In this document: one piece after another, positions 2,262 to 14,040 of the stretch | Layout: each line of letters opens with the position of its first letter | How positions within the stretch are numbered: the first letter of the stretch is position 1 | NCBI RefSeq assembly: GCF_963678165.1 | Contig: NZ_OY782755.1 | Span: 2,108,001-2,172,000, forward strand | Direction: 5' to 3' | Source: an uncultured Acetobacteroides sp. | GTDB taxonomy: Bacteria; Bacteroidota; Bacteroidia; Bacteroidales; ZOR0009 | Length of the DNA stretch: 64,000 bases | Made by a program: the position numbers and the translations under genes | Notes under the pieces: model-generated | What the model saw: the letters and a program-made list of their open reading frames with translations, nothing else | Databases searched by the model: none | Told to the model about the DNA's origin: nothing

Positions 2262-2336
2262 GTTGTTATGCTGTTGGCTTAATGTGTATTGGCTATGATT
2301 AAGGTTGTGGAATTGCCTTCTTTTATTGCAACTTAA

Positions 2337-2580
2337 GATAAAATTGAGCCAGAATAGTGCTATTTTGAGGTAGATCTACTTTGTTTCACTCGAACTTTTG
2401 GTAATGTTGGGTTAGAATAACGTTCTCTTGCAGTAGAATTGTATTATTTCGCTTCATTTTTAGGTAATACTAGATTAATATGGTGTTCTCTCGCTGTAGA
2501 ATTATCTTTTTTACTCGAACTTTAGGTAATTCTAGGGTAGAATAGTGTTCTCTTGTCGTAGAATTACCCTCTTTCGGATT
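2337..2580. repeat. Tandem array, 62-63 bp units, about 4 copies
   Basis: The anchor GTAGA recurs at 2370, 2433, 2496 and 2558 (steps 63, 63, 62) and GGTAAT at 2400, 2463 and 2525. Units contain ACTCGAACTTT...GGTAAT...TTAGAATA...GTTCTCTTG..GTAGAATT with 10-20% divergence. No coding frame. The rest of the gap, from 2580 to 3086, is AT-rich with no clear gene or repeat. Confidence 0.8.
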
Positions 2581-3086
2581 AGATTTTCATGTGAGAGTAA
2601 TTAATTCTTACTGATCACATGTAGTTCACATGGTAGATTTTCATCTACTTTGGTGAATTTGCAGATTTATGCTCGTTTTTTTTGAGGGATCAAAAGAAAT
2701 AGAAAAATCTTTTAATAAATATGTGGGGATAAAACAGACTGTGGGTATGGCATTGTAAAACCGATACCTAGTAACGATGAAATGTGAAACTTGATTAATA
2801 TAAAGAATTATATAACCCATTAGTAGTAAATATAATAGTTGCTTTAAATGTGAAAATTGATTTAATGGTGTTAATTGAACAATATTATTATTACTTTAGT
2901 GGCTTACACGATATCTGTATTGTTAGAATTATTTTAAACTATGTAAATGATAGTCTTTGAAAGTTGATTAAATGTAATTGTTTGAATTTGAGTATATTAT
3001 AAATATTGCAGAAAGATGATTGTCTTATTTTATTGAGGATTTGATGTAGAGATAAAAACGAATTTTCAACCATAAAAGTTAAGATC

Positions 3087-3740
3087 ATGAAACTAAAACA
3101 CATCAAAATTTTAAAAAGTATTTTTCTTTCATCTGTAGCATCATTAGTATCAACGGAATCAAATGCTACAATTTATGACTTGGAAAAAATAGATTTAAAC
3201 AATGAATGTGAAAGTTCTAGTATTTCAGGGACGAAAAAAACTGAGCTAAGTCCAAAATTAGTTATAACATTCAATAATGATGATACTTATACTACTATGG
3301 CACATAGGAGCCATAGTTCACATAGCTCCCATTCATCTCATAGTTCTCATTATTCTAGTTATAATTCTACGGAAAGTACTTCATATCCGACAACAACACC
3401 AACAAGTTATACGCCTTCTACTTCCACAAATAGGAATAGTTCCACTCAGAGTGGATCATATCAAACAACATCAAATACAACATATAACACATCAAGTAAA
3501 GAATCTCAATTAAAACTTGGCGATAGAGTTTTGAAAAGAGGTATGATTGGTTCTGATGTTGAAGAGTTAATTAATCTGCTGGTTTTGAAAGGGTATTTTG
3601 TAAAGGATAATCCTGAGAAGATAATTTACAATGAATTTAATCTTAATGTAGAAATTGCTGTTATTAATTTCCAAAAAAACAAAGGACTTATAGTTGATGG
3701 AATTGTAGGATCAGAAATGATTTATTGTCTCAAAAAATAG
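3087..3740 (+). CDS. hxsA: His-Xaa-Ser repeat protein HxsA, predicted substrate of the radical-SAM pair
   Basis: 217 aa. An N-terminal signal-like segment (KILKSIFLSSVASLVS, to about residue 26) predicts export. Residues 73-91 read HRSHSSHSSHSSHSSHYSS: six His at i+3 spacing, each followed by X-Ser, matching the HxsA family signature. A Ser/Thr/Tyr-rich linker follows (about 92-140), then a peptidoglycan-binding-like domain (about 145-217; LKRGMIGSDVEEL, FQKNKGLIVDGIVGSE). Known of the family: always found with HxsB, HxsC and HxsD and predicted to be modified in the His/Ser block; product unknown. It is followed 3 bp later by hxsD. Very AT-rich compared with flanking genes. Confidence 0.9.
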   Translation: MKLKHIKILKSIFLSSVASLVSTESNATIYDLEKIDLNNECESSSISGTKKTELSPKLVITFNNDDTYTTMAHRSHSSHSSHSSHSSHYSSYNSTESTSYPTTTPTSYTPSTSTNRNSSTQSGSYQTTSNTTYNTSSKESQLKLGDRVLKRGMIGSDVEELINLLVLKGYFVKDNPEKIIYNEFNLNVEIAVINFQKNKGLIVDGIVGSEMIYCLKK

Positions 3741-3743
3741 GAT

Positions 3744-4097
3744 ATGATTGAGTTTATTCAAATTGATGATAGAACAGTTCAAGTTAAGATTGATAGTAGT
3801 ATTTTCAATGAACAAGTAATTACTAAAAGTTTATATTGGCTCAGCGAAAATTATAATATATATCAAATGTTATCAGAAAGGATATTCGTTGTAAAATTTG
3901 AAATTAAACATGGATTACTTTTTGAAAATAATGTTGAAGTTTTGAAATCTTGTTTAAGTCAATATTTAATTGATTTTAAAACAAGAGATATAATAAATAA
4001 AGAAACAAAGAATATTAGAGAAATACTTTTAATAAAAGCATTTGCGAATAATGATGAATTTGAAGATTATAATTTAATTGATAATGAGCAAAAATAG
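3744..4097 (+). CDS. hxsD: His-Xaa-Ser system protein HxsD
   Basis: 117 aa. It has no catalytic motif I recognise. Identification rests on position (between hxsA and the two radical-SAM genes, 3 bp after one and 6 bp before the next), on size, and on a conserved-looking C-terminal stretch YLIDFKTRD...IREILLIKAFA that resembles the family's C-terminal motif. In peptide-modifying radical-SAM systems small partner proteins often bind the precursor; a similar carrier or recognition role is an inference. Cytosolic, no signal peptide. Same AT-rich base composition as hxsA, B and C. Confidence 0.75.
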   Translation: MIEFIQIDDRTVQVKIDSSIFNEQVITKSLYWLSENYNIYQMLSERIFVVKFEIKHGLLFENNVEVLKSCLSQYLIDFKTRDIINKETKNIREILLIKAFANNDEFEDYNLIDNEQK

Positions 4098-4103
4098 TGT
4101 AAA

Positions 4104-5510
4104 ATGAATTATTATCTATTACCTTTTAGATTTGAAAGATTAGGAGATTATGAAATATTAGTAAATGAAGTAGGTGATTACTTGATATGTTTAGCAGGAA
4201 CATCTAAGAGAATTGTAGAAAGACAAGTGTCTGAAAATGATGAGTTGTACAAAGACTTGATATCGAATCACTTTATATCTACAAAACCAATTCCTAAATT
4301 AGTTGATAATCTTGCAGCTAGATATAGAACAAAAAAGGCTTTTCTAGATAATTTTACGGCTTTACATATTTTTGTAATGACAATTAGATGTAATCAAAAT
4401 TGTTTATATTGTCAAGCATCTAGTAAAGAATGTAATCAAACTATTTATGATATTAGTTATGAAACATTAGATTATGGAATAAATTTAATGTTTCAATCTC
4501 CATCGCCTCATTTAACTATGGAATTTCAGGGAGGAGAACCAACTCTTGTTTTTGATAAAATAGAATATGCAATTGAAAAATGTGAAAAAATAAATGATTC
4601 TAAAAATAAGCATATAATATATGTAATATGTACAAATTCTGTTTCTTTAAGCAGTGATATGCTTTCTTTATGTAAGAAATATAACGTTCTTATTTCTACT
4701 TCACTTGATGGTCCAGAATTTGTTCATAATCAAAATAGGGGGAAAAAAGATAGTTACGAAAAGGTTTTATGTGGTATTAAAAATGTTAGAAATGAGTTGG
4801 GTGATAATAAAGTATCTGCATTAATGACTACTTCTAGATTATCACTGAATTATCCAAAAGAAATAGTTGATTCCTATATTGAAAATGGATTTTCAAATAT
4901 ATTTTTACGATCATTAAATCCATATGGTTTAGTTTATGAAAATGATAATTGGGATGATTATTATAGTCAATTTATTGAATTTTATAAAATATCATTAGAC
5001 TATATTATTAAAAAAAATAAAGAAGGTATTTATTTTGAAGAAAGTTTTACTACTTTAATTTTAAAGAAAATCCTCACTCCATTTTCTATAGGATTTGTAG
5101 ATCTACAATCTCCTGCAGGTTTAATAAATTCTGTTGTTGTCTACAATTATGATGGTTATGTTTATGCATCTGATGAATCCAGAATGTTAGCCGAGCACGA
5201 AGATTTTACTTTCAGATTAGGAAGTGTAAAAGATCGATATCTTGATTTATTTTATGGAAAGAAAACTTTGGAAATAGCAAATACATGGGCCAATGAATCT
5301 TTAGCAGGATGCTCAGACTGTGCCTTTCAAGCATATTGTGGTGCAGATCCTGTACGAAATTATACAACACAGAATGATATGGAAGGATTTCGGCCAACAT
5401 CATTTTTATGTAAAAAAAATAAATCAATAATTAAGCATATATTTTCTTTAATAATTAATCGAAATGAAGAAGTAATGCCTGTGTTTAAATCATGGTTAAA
5501 TAATAATTGA
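4104..5510 (+). CDS. hxsB: His-Xaa-Ser system radical-SAM maturase HxsB
   Basis: 468 aa. The radical-SAM [4Fe-4S] site is C96-x3-C100-x2-C103 (RCNQNCLYC), followed by the SAM-binding FQGGEPTL motif. The C-terminus carries C403, C406, C412 and C436 (CSDCAFQAYCGAD...C), a SPASM-like pattern that probably binds an auxiliary Fe-S cluster, as in peptide-modifying maturases such as anSME. The first 90 residues have no clear motif. Expected reaction: SAM cleavage to the 5'-deoxyadenosyl radical, then hydrogen abstraction from the HxsA His/Ser block; the exact chemistry is unknown. Starts 6 bp after hxsD. Confidence 0.88.
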   Translation: MNYYLLPFRFERLGDYEILVNEVGDYLICLAGTSKRIVERQVSENDELYKDLISNHFISTKPIPKLVDNLAARYRTKKAFLDNFTALHIFVMTIRCNQNCLYCQASSKECNQTIYDISYETLDYGINLMFQSPSPHLTMEFQGGEPTLVFDKIEYAIEKCEKINDSKNKHIIYVICTNSVSLSSDMLSLCKKYNVLISTSLDGPEFVHNQNRGKKDSYEKVLCGIKNVRNELGDNKVSALMTTSRLSLNYPKEIVDSYIENGFSNIFLRSLNPYGLVYENDNWDDYYSQFIEFYKISLDYIIKKNKEGIYFEESFTTLILKKILTPFSIGFVDLQSPAGLINSVVVYNYDGYVYASDESRMLAEHEDFTFRLGSVKDRYLDLFYGKKTLEIANTWANESLAGCSDCAFQAYCGADPVRNYTTQNDMEGFRPTSFLCKKNKSIIKHIFSLIINRNEEVMPVFKSWLNNN

Positions 5511-5512
5511 AT

Positions 5513-6628
5513 ATGCTGAATAAGACAATTAAATGTTTACAACATAATATATCTCACGAAGTGTTGATGATATATTCAAATAATCAATTGCTTAATGGAT
5601 ATTGTTTTGTTGACGGGTTGTCTGACCAATTTGAAATTCAACTTGAGTTTGAACATGATAAATTAAAATTCTGTTGGAGGTATATATTAATTAATAAGAA
5701 TGATTTTGATTATTTTGTTGATGGTGATATATTGTTATTTCGACCAAACGGTACAATACGAATTGTTTATTGTAATAATTCTAATGATAATGTATTATTC
5801 CTTACAGAGCAATGCAATAACCATTGTTTAATGTGTTCTCAACCTCCACAAATGAAAAATGATATTAATTATTACTATTGGCTTAATACTAGATTAATAG
5901 AATTAATTCCAGATAATTTATCAAGAATAGGAATAACAGGAGGCGAACCCACACTATTGAAAAATGGATTAATTGACATTCTGAATAATATAAAAAATAA
6001 ATTTAAAAATATTGATATACAGTTATTGTCAAATGGGAGAAATTTTGAAGATATTAATTATGTTCATAGTATTTATAATATTGAATTGGAAAAATTATTG
6101 ATTGGAATTCCTCTTCATTCAGATTTTTATAAAGATCATGATTATATTGCGCAATCAGAAGATGCATATAATCAAACTTTAAAAGGATTGTATAACTTAG
6201 CTAAATATGATTTTAACATTGAATTGAGAATAGTAATAAATAAAATTAACAAAGACAGATTAAACAATATCTCAAATTTTATTTTTAGAAATCTACCTTT
6301 TGTTAAACATGTTTCATTCATGGGTATGGAATATATTGGTTTTGTTCCTAAAAACAAAGAGAAAATATGGATTGATCCTGTTGAATATAAAGAAGAACTT
6401 AAGAAATCTGTTTTGAACTTATCTTCATTGGGAATGAATGTTTCAATATTTAATTTGCCTCTTTGTTTATTAGATAAAAGTCTTTATTCATACTCAAAAA
6501 AATCCATTTCTGATTGGAAGATTAAGTATTTTGATATTTGTGATGAATGTATCTTAAGACATGATTGTGGAGGTGATTTTGAAACTTCATTGCAATATAG
6601 TTGTAATATTAAACCTGTATGTATTTAA
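5513..6628 (+). CDS. hxsC: His-Xaa-Ser system radical-SAM maturase HxsC
   Basis: 371 aa from the ATG at 5513, two bases after the hxsB stop; a TTG at 5507 would overlap hxsB by 4 bp and is a less likely start. Radical-SAM site C101-x3-C105-x2-C108 (CNNHCLMC) with GITGGEPTL downstream. C-terminal cysteines C343, C346, C352, C364 and C370 suggest another auxiliary cluster. HxsB and HxsC are clearly different proteins, so the pair probably carries out two steps, or one acts with the other on the same peptide. Last gene of the island; the next gene is convergent. Product unknown. Confidence 0.88.
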   Translation: MLNKTIKCLQHNISHEVLMIYSNNQLLNGYCFVDGLSDQFEIQLEFEHDKLKFCWRYILINKNDFDYFVDGDILLFRPNGTIRIVYCNNSNDNVLFLTEQCNNHCLMCSQPPQMKNDINYYYWLNTRLIELIPDNLSRIGITGGEPTLLKNGLIDILNNIKNKFKNIDIQLLSNGRNFEDINYVHSIYNIELEKLLIGIPLHSDFYKDHDYIAQSEDAYNQTLKGLYNLAKYDFNIELRIVINKINKDRLNNISNFIFRNLPFVKHVSFMGMEYIGFVPKNKEKIWIDPVEYKEELKKSVLNLSSLGMNVSIFNLPLCLLDKSLYSYSKKSISDWKIKYFDICDECILRHDCGGDFETSLQYSCNIKPVCI

Positions 6629-6802
6629 AATAAATTTGATATTTATGATTTTATTACGCATAAAATATTGTAAGTGATAGATATTTATTTGTTTGTAATT
6701 GTATTTCTAAAGTAAACAACTAGATTAAATCTGTTTATAATGTATTTATATATAGATACAACTTGCCGTAAATGTAAAATTTGATATATAGGGTTTTATA
6801 CC

Positions 6803-8419
6803 CTAAAACCTCGCCAACTTTTCCAACCTAATAATACTTTGTTTTACTGGATGGGTAAACTCCAGGTATTCGGCATGGAGGTAAAGGCGGTTAGCCTTGG
6901 AGCCGTAGAGTTCGTCGCCAACAATGGGGCAGCATAACCCGTGGGGATGAGCGGCGTGTACCCTTAGCTGGTGGGTACGGCCGGTTAGCGGGTAAAAGGC
7001 TACGCGAGTTTGGCCGTTGCGGCGTTCTAGCACCTGGTAATTGGTTGTGGAGGGCTTGCCGTGTTGGTGGCACACCATCTGTCGGGGCCTGTCGAGTGGA
7101 TTGAGGATAAGGGGGAGATTTACGGTGCCCTCGTTGCTATGTAGCATGCCCTCGAGGATGGCAATGTAGCGCTTCCGTACCCTGCGCTGCTCGAACTGCG
7201 ACTGCAGCTGCTTGTACACCTCCTTGTTCTTTGCAATAAGCAGCAGGCCGGAGGTGGCCATGTCGAGCCGATGTACCAAAAAGGCTTCGCGCCCCTGTAG
7301 CAGCTCGCTTGCGAGCTCCACCGCCGATTTGTCGCCTGTCTTACCTGGGGCTGAGAGCATACCTGCGGGCTTATTGATTACCAGCAGCCAATTGTCCTCG
7401 TAGATAACCTCGAGGGATAGGGGAGTGAGGCTTTCGTTTTTCTTTTCGGGATGCTTTACGGCCATACCATGTAGCATGTGGGCCAAGATGGGATCACACT
7501 TACCCTTGCAAGGGGGATAGTAGTGGCCGTGGTGGCGGATTTCCGTTTTAGGAGAGCTGCCCCACCAGAACTCGGCCATGGCAATGGGGGTAAGGCTGTT
7601 GGCAAATGCGTACTGAAGCAGCTTAGGGCCAGCACACTCTCCAGTTCCTCCGGGAGGAACCCGCTGGGCGGTATTCGCAAAGATCTCTACCAGTCCTTTA
7701 GCCTCGCCGCGTATGTTTAGCAACTGAAACTCGTCGAAGAGCCGTTGTTGAAGATCGGCTGATAGCGCCTTTCTCTTTGACCGTAGCCCCTCTATGGGTT
7801 GGGCGTAGCGGTTGTACTCGGCTTGCAACTCGGCAATTCGGGCTGCCCATCTTTTCTCTAGCCTCTTTAGCTCGGCCTTCTCGTACTGACTTTGTCGAAC
7901 CATAGCCGTTAGCTCCTCGTCCGATGGGTTTGTGGTGCGGCGCTCTTCTCTTGCAGCCTTCGAGGCCTTTAGGGCGGCCTTTGCGGCGGCAATCGCTTCG
8001 ATGGATTGCTGCTTTGCCTGCTCTAGCTGGTTCCTTCGGTTGGTAAACTCAGGGTTTTGCTCCATCTCGGCTATTTGCCGATTTATGGAGGAGATAACCT
8101 GCTCGCCCTGCTTAAAGAAGCCGTTGGGGCTTAGCAGATCGGCTACCGGGGGAACAAAGAAGGGATGGTGGTTCTTCCCTGCCAGATTTCCAGAGAAGGC
8201 GGCAAGGTAGCCTAGTCGTCCGTTGCTTTCCTTTACCACCAAAACGCCAAACATCTTACCCTGCTGCAGCTCGTCGTGCCACTGGGCTTGCTGTTCGAGG
8301 TACGCCTTTACTTCGCCAGCTGCCAACTTGCATATAGGATGCGGTTCGCTGGTAAAGGGCGAAGGGAATTGTACGGGTAGCTCTATATGGCTGGTCTCGG
8401 TAGTAAAATGGTTGAGCAT
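6803..8419 (-). CDS. RluA-family pseudouridine synthase with long N-terminal extension
   Basis: 538 aa. The C-terminal part (about 335-538) is an RluA-type catalytic domain: INKPAGMLSAPG, then HRLDMATSGLLL with H383 and catalytic D386, and LTGRTHQLRVHAAHPHG. It converts uridine to pseudouridine in structured RNA, probably rRNA or tRNA. Typical RluA proteins are 220-320 aa; here about 330 extra residues precede the domain, including a charged coiled coil (about 110-230) and a region with GTGECAGPKLLQYAF and a HGHYYPPCKGKCDP Cys/His segment. That extension could contact substrate RNA or the ribosome (inference). Convergent with hxsC across a 174-bp gap that holds no gene. Confidence 0.88.
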   Translation of the reverse strand: MLNHFTTETSHIELPVQFPSPFTSEPHPICKLAAGEVKAYLEQQAQWHDELQQGKMFGVLVVKESNGRLGYLAAFSGNLAGKNHHPFFVPPVADLLSPNGFFKQGEQVISSINRQIAEMEQNPEFTNRRNQLEQAKQQSIEAIAAAKAALKASKAAREERRTTNPSDEELTAMVRQSQYEKAELKRLEKRWAARIAELQAEYNRYAQPIEGLRSKRKALSADLQQRLFDEFQLLNIRGEAKGLVEIFANTAQRVPPGGTGECAGPKLLQYAFANSLTPIAMAEFWWGSSPKTEIRHHGHYYPPCKGKCDPILAHMLHGMAVKHPEKKNESLTPLSLEVIYEDNWLLVINKPAGMLSAPGKTGDKSAVELASELLQGREAFLVHRLDMATSGLLLIAKNKEVYKQLQSQFEQRRVRKRYIAILEGMLHSNEGTVNLPLILNPLDRPRQMVCHQHGKPSTTNYQVLERRNGQTRVAFYPLTGRTHQLRVHAAHPHGLCCPIVGDELYGSKANRLYLHAEYLEFTHPVKQSIIRLEKLARF

Positions 8420-8423
8420 GGGG

Positions 8424-8431
8424 CAAAGGTA
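8424..8431 (-). promoter_or_regulatory. -7 box (TACCTTTG) just upstream of the RluA-type gene
   Basis: On the minus strand TACCTTTG ends 5 bp before the ATG at 8419, so transcription would start at or next to the start codon, implying a leaderless or nearly leaderless mRNA. No TTTG is seen at the -33 position. Confidence 0.4.
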
Positions 8432-8459
8432 GGTTTTTGGAGGGGATTTTGGGGTGATT

Positions 8460-8700
8460 TTAGACGTTAGACATTAGAGGCTAGATATTAGACGTTAGAT
8501 ATTCGGGGAAGAGGATGATAGAGATGCCTGATGGCTGATTTGCGCTACTGGCAAACAGAATTTGCAGCAAGGTTGATGGAGGCACCTTATTAGACGTTAG
8601 ACGTTAGACGCTAGACGCTAGACTTTCGGGGAAGAAGATCATAGAAATACCTGAGGACTGGCAAACAAGAATTGCAGCAAGATTGATGGAGGCACCTTAT
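8460..8700. repeat. Two-copy direct repeat with TTAGACG heptamers
   Basis: Two copies of a 110-130 bp block. Each begins with a run of TTAGACG/CTAGACG heptamers (8460-8500 and 8590-8623), continues with TTCGGGGAAGA.GAT.ATAGA.AT.CCTGA (8502 and 8625), and ends in GGCAAACA...GCAGCAAG.TTGATGGAGGCACCTTAT (to 8590 and 8700). The second copy is shorter by 13 bp in the middle. Non-coding. Confidence 0.8.
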
Positions 8701-8850
8701 CCCCTCCTTGGGAGGGGTTAGGGGTGGGTTGGGTTTCTATTTGAAAGATTAGCCACCCAATACACCTCTTTTCAACGTGGAATTTAAGCAGTTCGTCAGG
8801 ACTGCCTTTGCTCTAAACCCACCCCCTGCCCTCTCCCGTGGAGGTGATAA
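8697..8850. mobile_element. MITE-like element, 154 bp, about 34-bp terminal inverted repeats
   Basis: The left end TTATCCCCTCCTTGGGAGGG (from 8697, continuing to GGGTGGGTT at 8730) is mirrored by the right end AACCCACCCCC (8816) to GAGGTGATAA at 8850. Each arm itself contains a palindrome. The GGGAGGGG core also recurs in the repeats near 51, 457 and 830 and at about 38425, so this is a dispersed family. The rest of the gap to 9294 shows no gene. Confidence 0.6.
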
Positions 8851-9294
8851 CGAGCGCTGATTCAGGTTTCCTCCGATTAACTTCTGCTTATTTCCGTTTA
8901 ACTACTCTTTTAAATACGGAGATACAGGGTACACTGCGTTTCCAATTTGTAATTTGTTCCCTTTGTGTGATCCATAGAGGCCTTCGTGGTAAATATCTCC
9001 TGCCAGTCTGGTATTGCTTTTTCGAGATGCTTGCGGAAGAGGGTGTGTTGATACTACTTTGCTTTATTAATGGGGTGTAGTGTACTGAAAGTAGGGTGGT
9101 TGTTGTAATTGTCGATACAAGGGGTGGCTAAGCAAAATAGTAGAAGAGAGAGTTCTGGCGCTTTCTCATTATCTTTTGTACTTGCTATATTTATGCCATA
9201 AATTGGGGGCTGAACTTGTGGTGCATTGCAGCTTGCTACCCGAGTGATGCTCGTAGGAATTATCAGAAAACGAAATAACAACAAAAGCACATCC

Positions 9295-13552: not shown

Positions 13553-14040
13553 CCTTCAGCGCAGAAGGTGCGATGTGATTTATTGGGATGGCTTTTGCAG
13601 CGCAGAAGGTATGTCTTTAAAAATGGAGATGTCGTGTGCAGCGCAGAATGGATGGTGTCAAAAGTTGAGATATAAATATCTGCGCAGAATGAGTGGTATG
13701 AATTATCGGTATAGCATGTGCAGCGCAGAATGTATGTCTTTAAAGTTGGAGATGGCGTGTGCGGCGCAGAATGTATGGCGTCAAAAGTTGAGGTGTAATT
13801 ATCGGCGCAGAAGGTGTGGCGTGATTTATCGGTATAGTGTGTGCAGCGCAGAAGGTGTATGACAAAAATTGGAGATGTAGTGTGCAGCACAGAATGTATG
13901 GTGTCAAAAGTTGAGGTATAATTATCGGCGCAGAAGGCATGGTGTGAATTGTCAGTATAAAATGTGCAGCGCAGAATGTGTGTCTTCCAAATTGAAGGTG
14001 AATTGTGCAGCGCAGAAGGTGTGCCCGAATATTCAATGAA
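13553..14040. repeat. Tandem array, exactly 41 bp per unit, 12 units, with 3-unit (123 bp) higher order
   Basis: The anchor GCGCAGAA (one GCACAGAA) begins at 13559, 13600, 13641, 13682, 13723, 13764, 13805, 13846, 13887, 13928, 13969 and 14010: every step is 41 bp. Three unit types alternate (one with ATGTCTTTAAA..TGGAGATG, one with GTGTCAAAAGTTGAG, one with TGATTTATCGGTATAG), so the array also repeats at 123 bp. The minus-strand open frame across it (207 aa) arises because 123 is divisible by three; its Cys/His/Thr-rich translation has no sign of being a protein. Confidence 0.92.

Follow-up and report, generated by a model that had tools for sequence, protein, structure and literature searches.

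An HxsADBC-type His-Xaa-Ser cassette in an uncultured Acetobacteroides and a tentative cyclophane chemistry for its maturase HxsB

We focused on a 64,000-nucleotide stretch of an uncultured Acetobacteroides sp. (assembly GCF_963678165.1, contig NZ_OY782755.1, forward-strand positions 2,108,001 to 2,172,000; hereafter, the window), which carries four genes, hxsA, hxsD, hxsB and hxsC, of a predicted His-Xaa-Ser (HxS) modification system. The four genes are consecutive at window positions 3087-6628 on the + strand, with gaps of a few bases (Table 1). An earlier, sequence-only reading had described them as a secreted-type protein with a repeat block, a small partner and two radical S-adenosylmethionine (SAM) proteins with auxiliary cysteines, and both the gene row and the invariant cysteines were confirmed here. 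Families were assigned with NCBIfam models and their curated cut-offs, and with Pfam for the HxsA C terminus. The search that this reading had proposed, with the four Hxs hidden Markov models, returned matches to all of them; its HxsADBC label held for HxsB, HxsC and HxsD, which scored over their cut-offs, and not for HxsA (64.8 vs 121.65 bits). With three families over their cut-offs and an HxS repeat beside the enzymes, the assignment of the cassette to the predicted HxsADBC system is supported. This cassette type is already known as a predicted system, to which the window adds another member. The ATG at 5513 is a likelier hxsC start than the TTG at 5507 listed by the open reading frame tool. 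A scan of the cassette against PADLOC-DB, a library without cut-offs, returned viperin matches only, via the radical SAM core (best 41.3 bits).

Table 1 Features of the cassette and the insertion that holds it (positions in the window).
Feature	Position	Strand	Basis
AT-rich insertion with the cassette, 500-base windows at 23-32% GC	2262..6790		GC scan
hxsA, substrate protein, 217 aa	3087..3740	+	TIGR03979 64.8 bits, E 9.8e-18, under cut-off 121.65
hxsA signal-like N terminus, residues 1-27, basic then hydrophobic	3087..3167	+	hydrophobicity scan
hxsA leader hydrophobic triad LVI, residues 58-60, 13-15 residues before core	3258..3266	+	comparison of 28 HxsA
hxsA HxS core, residues 73-90, six units HRS HSS HSS HSS HSS HYS	3303..3356	+	pattern
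hxsA C-terminal peptidoglycan-binding domain, residues 155-212	3549..3722	+	PF01471 26.3 bits, cut-off 23
hxsD, small partner, 117 aa	3744..4097	+	TIGR03976 71.6 bits, cut-off 50
hxsB, radical SAM/SPASM maturase, 468 aa	4104..5510	+	TIGR03978 548.8 bits, cut-off 370; AlphaFold2 model
hxsB N-terminal RRE-like domain, residues 1-82, three strands then helices	4104..4349	+	model, fold alignments
hxsB radical SAM cluster ligands C96, C100, C103	4389..4412	+	40/40 sequences
hxsB S356-D357, Ser replacing an AuxI (auxiliary cluster I) ligand, then Asp aligned with anSME D277	5169..5174	+	anSME 4k37 alignment
hxsB AuxII (auxiliary cluster II) ligands C403, C406, C412, C436	5310..5411	+	40/40 sequences
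hxsC, second radical SAM maturase, 371 aa	5513..6628	+	TIGR03977 350 bits, cut-off 267.9
hxsC radical SAM ligands C101, C105, C108, then QPP motif	5813..5836	+	Cys in 38/38
hxsC further Cys C318, C343, C346, C352	6464..6568	+	38/38 sequences

The low score of HxsA was compared with those of eight HxsA proteins from other cassettes. Two passed the TIGR03979 cut-off (L019, 230.6 bits; L024, 162.8 bits) and six fell under it (L003, L011, L012, L013, L060 and L061; 23.9 to 104.4 bits), among them L061, which passes the HxsA2 model. Because six of the eight also fail, TIGR03979 covers only part of the HxsA family. We regard the window HxsA as the predicted HxS-repeat substrate of the cassette, and by the curated rule not as a TIGR03979 equivalog.

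The HxsA core (residues 73-90, window 3303-3356) reads HRSHSSHSSHSSHSSHYS and consists of six HxS units in tandem; the six frames of the window contain no further run of at least three units. When the HxsA residues were shuffled 200,000 times, a maximum of three units was reached vs the six observed. The four HSS units differ pairwise at 1-4 of 9 bases and encode an identical tripeptide; the repeat therefore looks maintained at the protein level. For comparison, 34 HxsA proteins were collected and 28 were kept, six being dropped as >85% alike. Runs were counted with His fixed and Ser, Thr or Gly allowed at the third position; any other third residue ended the run, and HxA units were uncounted. 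Under this pattern the third position was Ser in all 187 units, and the x position held 13 residue types, mostly S, R, A and Y, with eleven units in the longest relative seen. Upstream of the core, V/I/L/M/F occupied position -15 in 82% of the 28 proteins vs 27% across positions -32 to -1, and Ala was found at -2 in 21 of them (the window HxsA has Ala at -1). Half of the set (14/28) end no more than 15 residues past the core, without room for a wall-binding domain, and the leader and core are therefore the common element and wall binding is optional. The window HxsA would be exported, judging from its signal-like N terminus.

HxsB scored >100 bits in 38 of the 41 stretches collected, a presence that is by construction since most loci were found via HxsB (L007-L010 via HxsC), and HxsC was alongside in 36 of the 38, the exceptions being the archaeal loci L004 and L005. 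Both enzymes were present in all eight further loci. The distances among HxsB proteins followed those among HxsC proteins closely (Mantel r 0.90, a value reached by none of 9,999 permutations) across 38 loci, a set that excluded L026, L032, L034, L035, L036 and L043. From their co-occurrence, their parallel divergence and the constant Ser of the repeat, we infer that HxsB and HxsC act on the HxS repeat; the earlier reading had further proposed that the two install different changes. The substrate gene varied in position: of 35 loci compared, 17 have HxsA upstream of HxsB and 18 have it downstream. A profile search of the loci did not detect HxsD in L023, in L038-L040 or in four rhizobial loci; it was likewise undetected in L032 and L035, whose contigs stop close to hxsB. 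HxsD is apparently absent or diverged in some loci. Among the clusters of flanking proteins, many of which are frames opposite hxsB or hxsC, no widespread fifth gene was found besides A, B, C and D. In a plasmid search, HxsB matches (E 1e-20 or better) occurred in 415 of 72,556 records; 318 of these were from Klebsiella, and 328 of the 415 plasmids were typed conjugative. Among the named relatives seen, the nearest (52-53% identity) were encoded on plasmids of Bacteroidota (Adhaeribacter, Hymenobacter) and of Leptospira.

An AlphaFold2 model of HxsB, based on a 16-sequence alignment, had a mean predicted local distance difference test score (pLDDT) of 90.2 and a predicted template modelling score (pTM) of 0.90. 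Using this model, Foldseek matched CteB (E 3.6e-19, 477 columns), anSME (1.3e-16, 397), TigE (2.4e-14, 485), ChlB (1.9e-14, 401) and SuiB (1.6e-12, 491), and the epimerase EpeE at ~E 1e-5; the column counts include gaps, and the whole-chain root-mean-square deviation was 6-13 Å for CteB, TigE and SuiB. An N-terminal RRE is a feature of these three enzymes and would account for the greater length of their alignments. A profile search of the HxsB N-terminal sequence against the PDB found no RRE (best E 1.4, unrelated); the model and the fold alignments suggest that this domain may be RRE-like. Aligned with anSME, HxsB has C403, C406, C412 and C436 at the AuxII places and D357 at the place of D277 (we take the anSME positions to have these cluster and residue roles). 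The four cysteines and the Asp were invariant in all 40 HxsB sequences, that is, the 38-locus set plus L004 and L005, which still contains close relatives. The window HxsB has no Cys at or near the AuxI places. Across the 40 sequences, position 356 was S/T/A in 37 (S in 31) and Cys in three, position 338 was A/S/N in 31 and Cys in five, and position 416 was P in 32 and Cys in none.

The PDB sequence of ChlB (9gm3) also has the four AuxII cysteines and the Asp, and it too lacks Cys where the AuxI ligands would be. The title of a reference cited within PMC12636437 calls ChlB a multiple cyclophane synthase. Seven YhhB-like Bacteroidota proteins all lack Cys at the positions corresponding to 338 and 356 and all keep the AuxII cysteines, and six of them keep the Asp; one of these proteins matches ChlB in the PDB at E 6.4e-58. 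An excerpt of the review PMC11002830 describes a C2(His)-Cbeta(Ala) bond between i and i+2 for HaaB and ScaB, a C2(His)-Cbeta(Arg) bond for YhhB and a C4(Phe)-Cbeta(Ser) bond for MscB. The triceptide motif rule in that excerpt, an aromatic residue at i and its partner at i+2, fits the HxS units of the compared HxsA proteins (187 units, 28 proteins). At slightly below even odds (roughly 45%), we consider three-residue His-Ser cyclophanes on HxsA to be the likeliest product of HxsB, with HxsC making a second change.

In a rival reading, HxsB would be an anSME-like dehydrogenase that converts the Ser of the repeat to formylglycine (-2 Da each), and the resulting aldehyde ladder might react with His or the cell wall. 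anSME is known to accept Ser, it was the second-best group for HxsB in both the profile and the fold search, and the Asp aligned with D277 is kept in every HxsB; however, the window HxsB has no Cys at the anSME AuxI places, and Ser oxidation leaves unexplained why His recurs as regularly as Ser. We regard formylglycine as unlikely, and still as a real rival to the cyclophane.

Several observations weigh against cyclophane formation by HxsB. The HxsB proteins of L004, L005 and L033 have Cys at 338, 356 and 415, and loss of AuxI is not required for an HxS substrate because L005 and L033 keep these AuxI-type cysteines beside HxS repeats. Lone cysteines at or near the AuxI places were also found at 338 (L019, L027), 343 (L003) and 417 (L024), and at positions 344 and 417 in L037 and L041. 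The YhhB-like proteins all score below the YhhB cut-off (best 355 vs 445 bits), and they are less uniform than HxsB: six of the seven have a Cys about five residues after the Asp place, L076 has one at 339 and L077 lacks the Asp. The AuxI argument is weakened by these lone cysteines and this less uniform set, and among the SPASM families the comparison covers HxsB, anSME, ChlB and the YhhB-like set. Of the other NCBIfam models, HxsB scores best with that of the ranthipeptide maturase PapB (109 bits) and lower with YhhB and GrrM, and the top fold match, CteB, is a thioether enzyme.

Against the cyclophane models themselves, HxsB scored 63.4 vs 445 bits for YhhB (NF041707), 62.6 vs 310 for GrrM (TIGR04261) and 37.3 vs 370 for FxsB (TIGR04269). 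A search of 395 Bacteroidota genomes with TIGR04261 gave no match, and as its control also gave none, the search carries no evidential weight. Thioether formation was considered and set aside as unlikely, since the window HxsA core contains no Cys.

The QPP motif of HxsC is well conserved (Q 37/38, P 36/38, P 37/38), and its four further cysteines likely form one auxiliary cluster. The HxsC profile reached no cyclophane makers; its matches were to viperin-like enzymes and SkfB, none stronger than E 1e-7. Both this profile and the cysteines, which suffice for one auxiliary cluster, would agree with one or both enzymes acting on alpha-carbons to give D-residues or some other change without coupling. 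The repeat would then serve as a periodic recognition array and not as cross-linked pairs. On the other hand, HxsB groups with SPASM cross-linking and oxidising enzymes, and EpeE matches its model only at the weak value given above; we think this uncoupled reading improbable. A search of the HxsD sequence against the PDB gave no convincing relative (best E 0.0097, a designed helix bundle).

If cyclophanes are formed, newly made HxsA would comprise, in order, the signal-like N terminus, the hydrophobic leader strand, the six-unit core and the C-terminal peptidoglycan-binding domain, and the RRE-like domain of HxsB would bind the leader. The 5'-deoxyadenosyl radical of HxsB would then abstract a beta-hydrogen from the side chain of Ser(i+2), and the resulting Ser radical would be captured by the imidazole of His(i), most simply at C2. 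The AuxII cluster would accept the electron and Asp357 would serve as base. The predicted product is a three-residue C(His)-Cbeta(Ser) cyclophane, with a loss of 2 Da per unit and up to 12 Da for six units. HxsC would modify this core a second time, by a further cross-link or at an alpha-carbon, with HxsD in an assisting role. The modified HxsA could then be exported and held at the cell wall, where it would show a stiff row of imidazoles, plausibly metal-binding.

Hxs systems are predicted ones and are widespread on plasmids. An excerpt of PMC9062424 credits the HxS motif to Haft and Basu and has the enzymes putatively maturing it; the excerpts in which Hxs names were found, among the matches listed, contain passing mentions and no report of chemistry. 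For a cassette of predicted chemistry, the sequence suggests one specific, testable reaction. The link between HxsB and AuxI-less cyclophane enzymes replaces 'function unknown' with a defined mass shift and defined residues, and if it is true, a protein-scale, wall-anchored product joins a class known from small peptides. A further proposal, which we hold to be doubtful, is that HxsA is the first of a wall-anchored class bearing a ladder of adjacent imidazole-serine cyclophanes (up to six in the window protein), a stiff metal-binding periplasmic or surface rod spread on plasmids and islands as a self-contained four-gene trait.

The cassette lies in an AT-rich insertion, and the remaining first 16 kb of the window has 44-61% GC, except for the 500-base windows straddling the insertion edges. 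We regard the cassette as horizontally acquired. In the congener G002, homology returns on both sides, with 87% protein identity for an RluA-type gene and, on the left, ~81% DNA identity over 929 aligned bases; the gap between the flanks there is occupied by genes whose products match the restriction, methylation and specificity subunits of type I systems. In a second congener without HxsC, only the RluA side of the site was found. HxsC itself was not found in these two congeners and is rare across the group; it was present in two of 59 relatives (own genome excluded) and in one of 394 genomes of the phylum, there as a contig-edge fragment below the cut-off. At the cassette site, the congener locus L058 (2573-11943) carries a type I restriction-modification cluster together with an AAA ATPase and a partner gene, a pair that may be McrBC-like (PADLOC support is weak). 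The cassette site is variable because L058 holds the restriction-modification cluster there. A comparable swap is reported for Vibrio parahaemolyticus in an excerpt of PMC6537148, and an excerpt of PMC8446631, a Pseudomonas aeruginosa paper, lists hxs genes together with conjugative and phage genes.

The AT-rich insertion, the absence of HxsC from the two congeners and the different filling of the site in one of them could also mean that the cassette arrived recently and is silent or decaying, the repeat being an unmodified metal-binding sequence here. All four frames are open, however, and every alignment-invariant Cys is present in the window enzymes; we consider a silent cassette very unlikely.

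The window also contains repeats. Just inside the left edge of the AT-rich insertion, 2321-2576 holds four imperfect tandem repeats of 62-63 bp that are 62-78% alike to the reference copy. A 247-nt repeat occurs in three copies at 1-1025 (the two others 96% and 89% alike), and relatives of it were found past the RluA-type gene in a congener. A further tandem array at 13559-14017 has a 123/246-bp period with ~81% matches and a 41-bp sub-period. Upstream of the cassette, 1524-2261 encodes a 245-aa protein with weak helix-turn-helix matches only, and elsewhere in its own genome and genus it again had weak matches only (21-27% identity).

Neighbouring genes were profiled around 30 cassettes in a set of 140 flanking proteins (136 of 158 listed, plus four added by hand). 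Endonuclease_NS occurred three times, including the hand-added L038, and SNase twice. In 27 records, six of the 15 nuclease matches were no more than 4 kb away from a cassette, vs 0.24 expected. The nuclease-cassette link was dropped, as the idea had been formed on the same loci and neither family was annotated in the flanks of eight new loci, of which L065 and L066 are near-identical and L063 has a distant HNH endonuclease. The SNase/Endonuclease_NS genes beside the cassette are at L015 8591-9304, L016 8988-9521, L022 3808-4758, L038 8862-9911 and L060 9234-9992. Directly after the L037 cassette, Pfam identified an OLD-like TOPRIM ATPase and then a UvrD helicase (5246-8952), which we take to be a Gabija-like pair, and L034 has an ATPase frame related to this OLD-like ATPase at 3833-7696. 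The divergent systems with AuxI cysteines (L004 5072-8489, L005 5148-8490 and L033 2907-7401) adjoin a prepilin-peptidase-like gene; Peptidase_A24 was matched at E 3.4e-9 in L004, at E 1e-5 in two members and, below the cut-off, at E 0.0037 in L033. Two HxsD-like genes, with a radical SAM protein close by, were also found in the archaeal L004 and L005; the radical SAM protein of L004 is not HxsC (40 bits vs 267.9). These three systems are possibly a pilin-type export branch of Hxs.

Compared with the HxsADBC system as modelled (TIGR03979, 03976, 03978, 03977), the window cassette is alike in having all four genes adjacent and B, C and D over their cut-offs, and differs in its HxsA, which is below the cut-off; its hxsA stands first, as in 17 of the 35 loci. 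With the triceptide maturases (ChlB, YhhB, HaaB, MscB), the system shares a substrate with an aromatic residue at i and a partner at i+2, and ChlB and most YhhB-like proteins share with HxsB the AuxII cysteines without AuxI cysteines, plus the Asp. Unlike those enzymes, HxsB passes no cyclophane family cut-off seen, has ~90 residues before the radical SAM core vs about nine in the solved ChlB chain, and works beside a second radical SAM enzyme. The thioether maturases resemble it in fold and family, CteB giving the top fold match and PapB ranking next among the family models; the window HxsA core lacks Cys and HxsB lacks Cys at the AuxI places. anSME has in common with HxsB the SPASM fold and the aligned catalytic Asp; HxsB differs in having the AuxII cysteines without AuxI ligands, and thus falls short of two auxiliary clusters, and it differs further in its repeat substrate and extra N-terminal domain.

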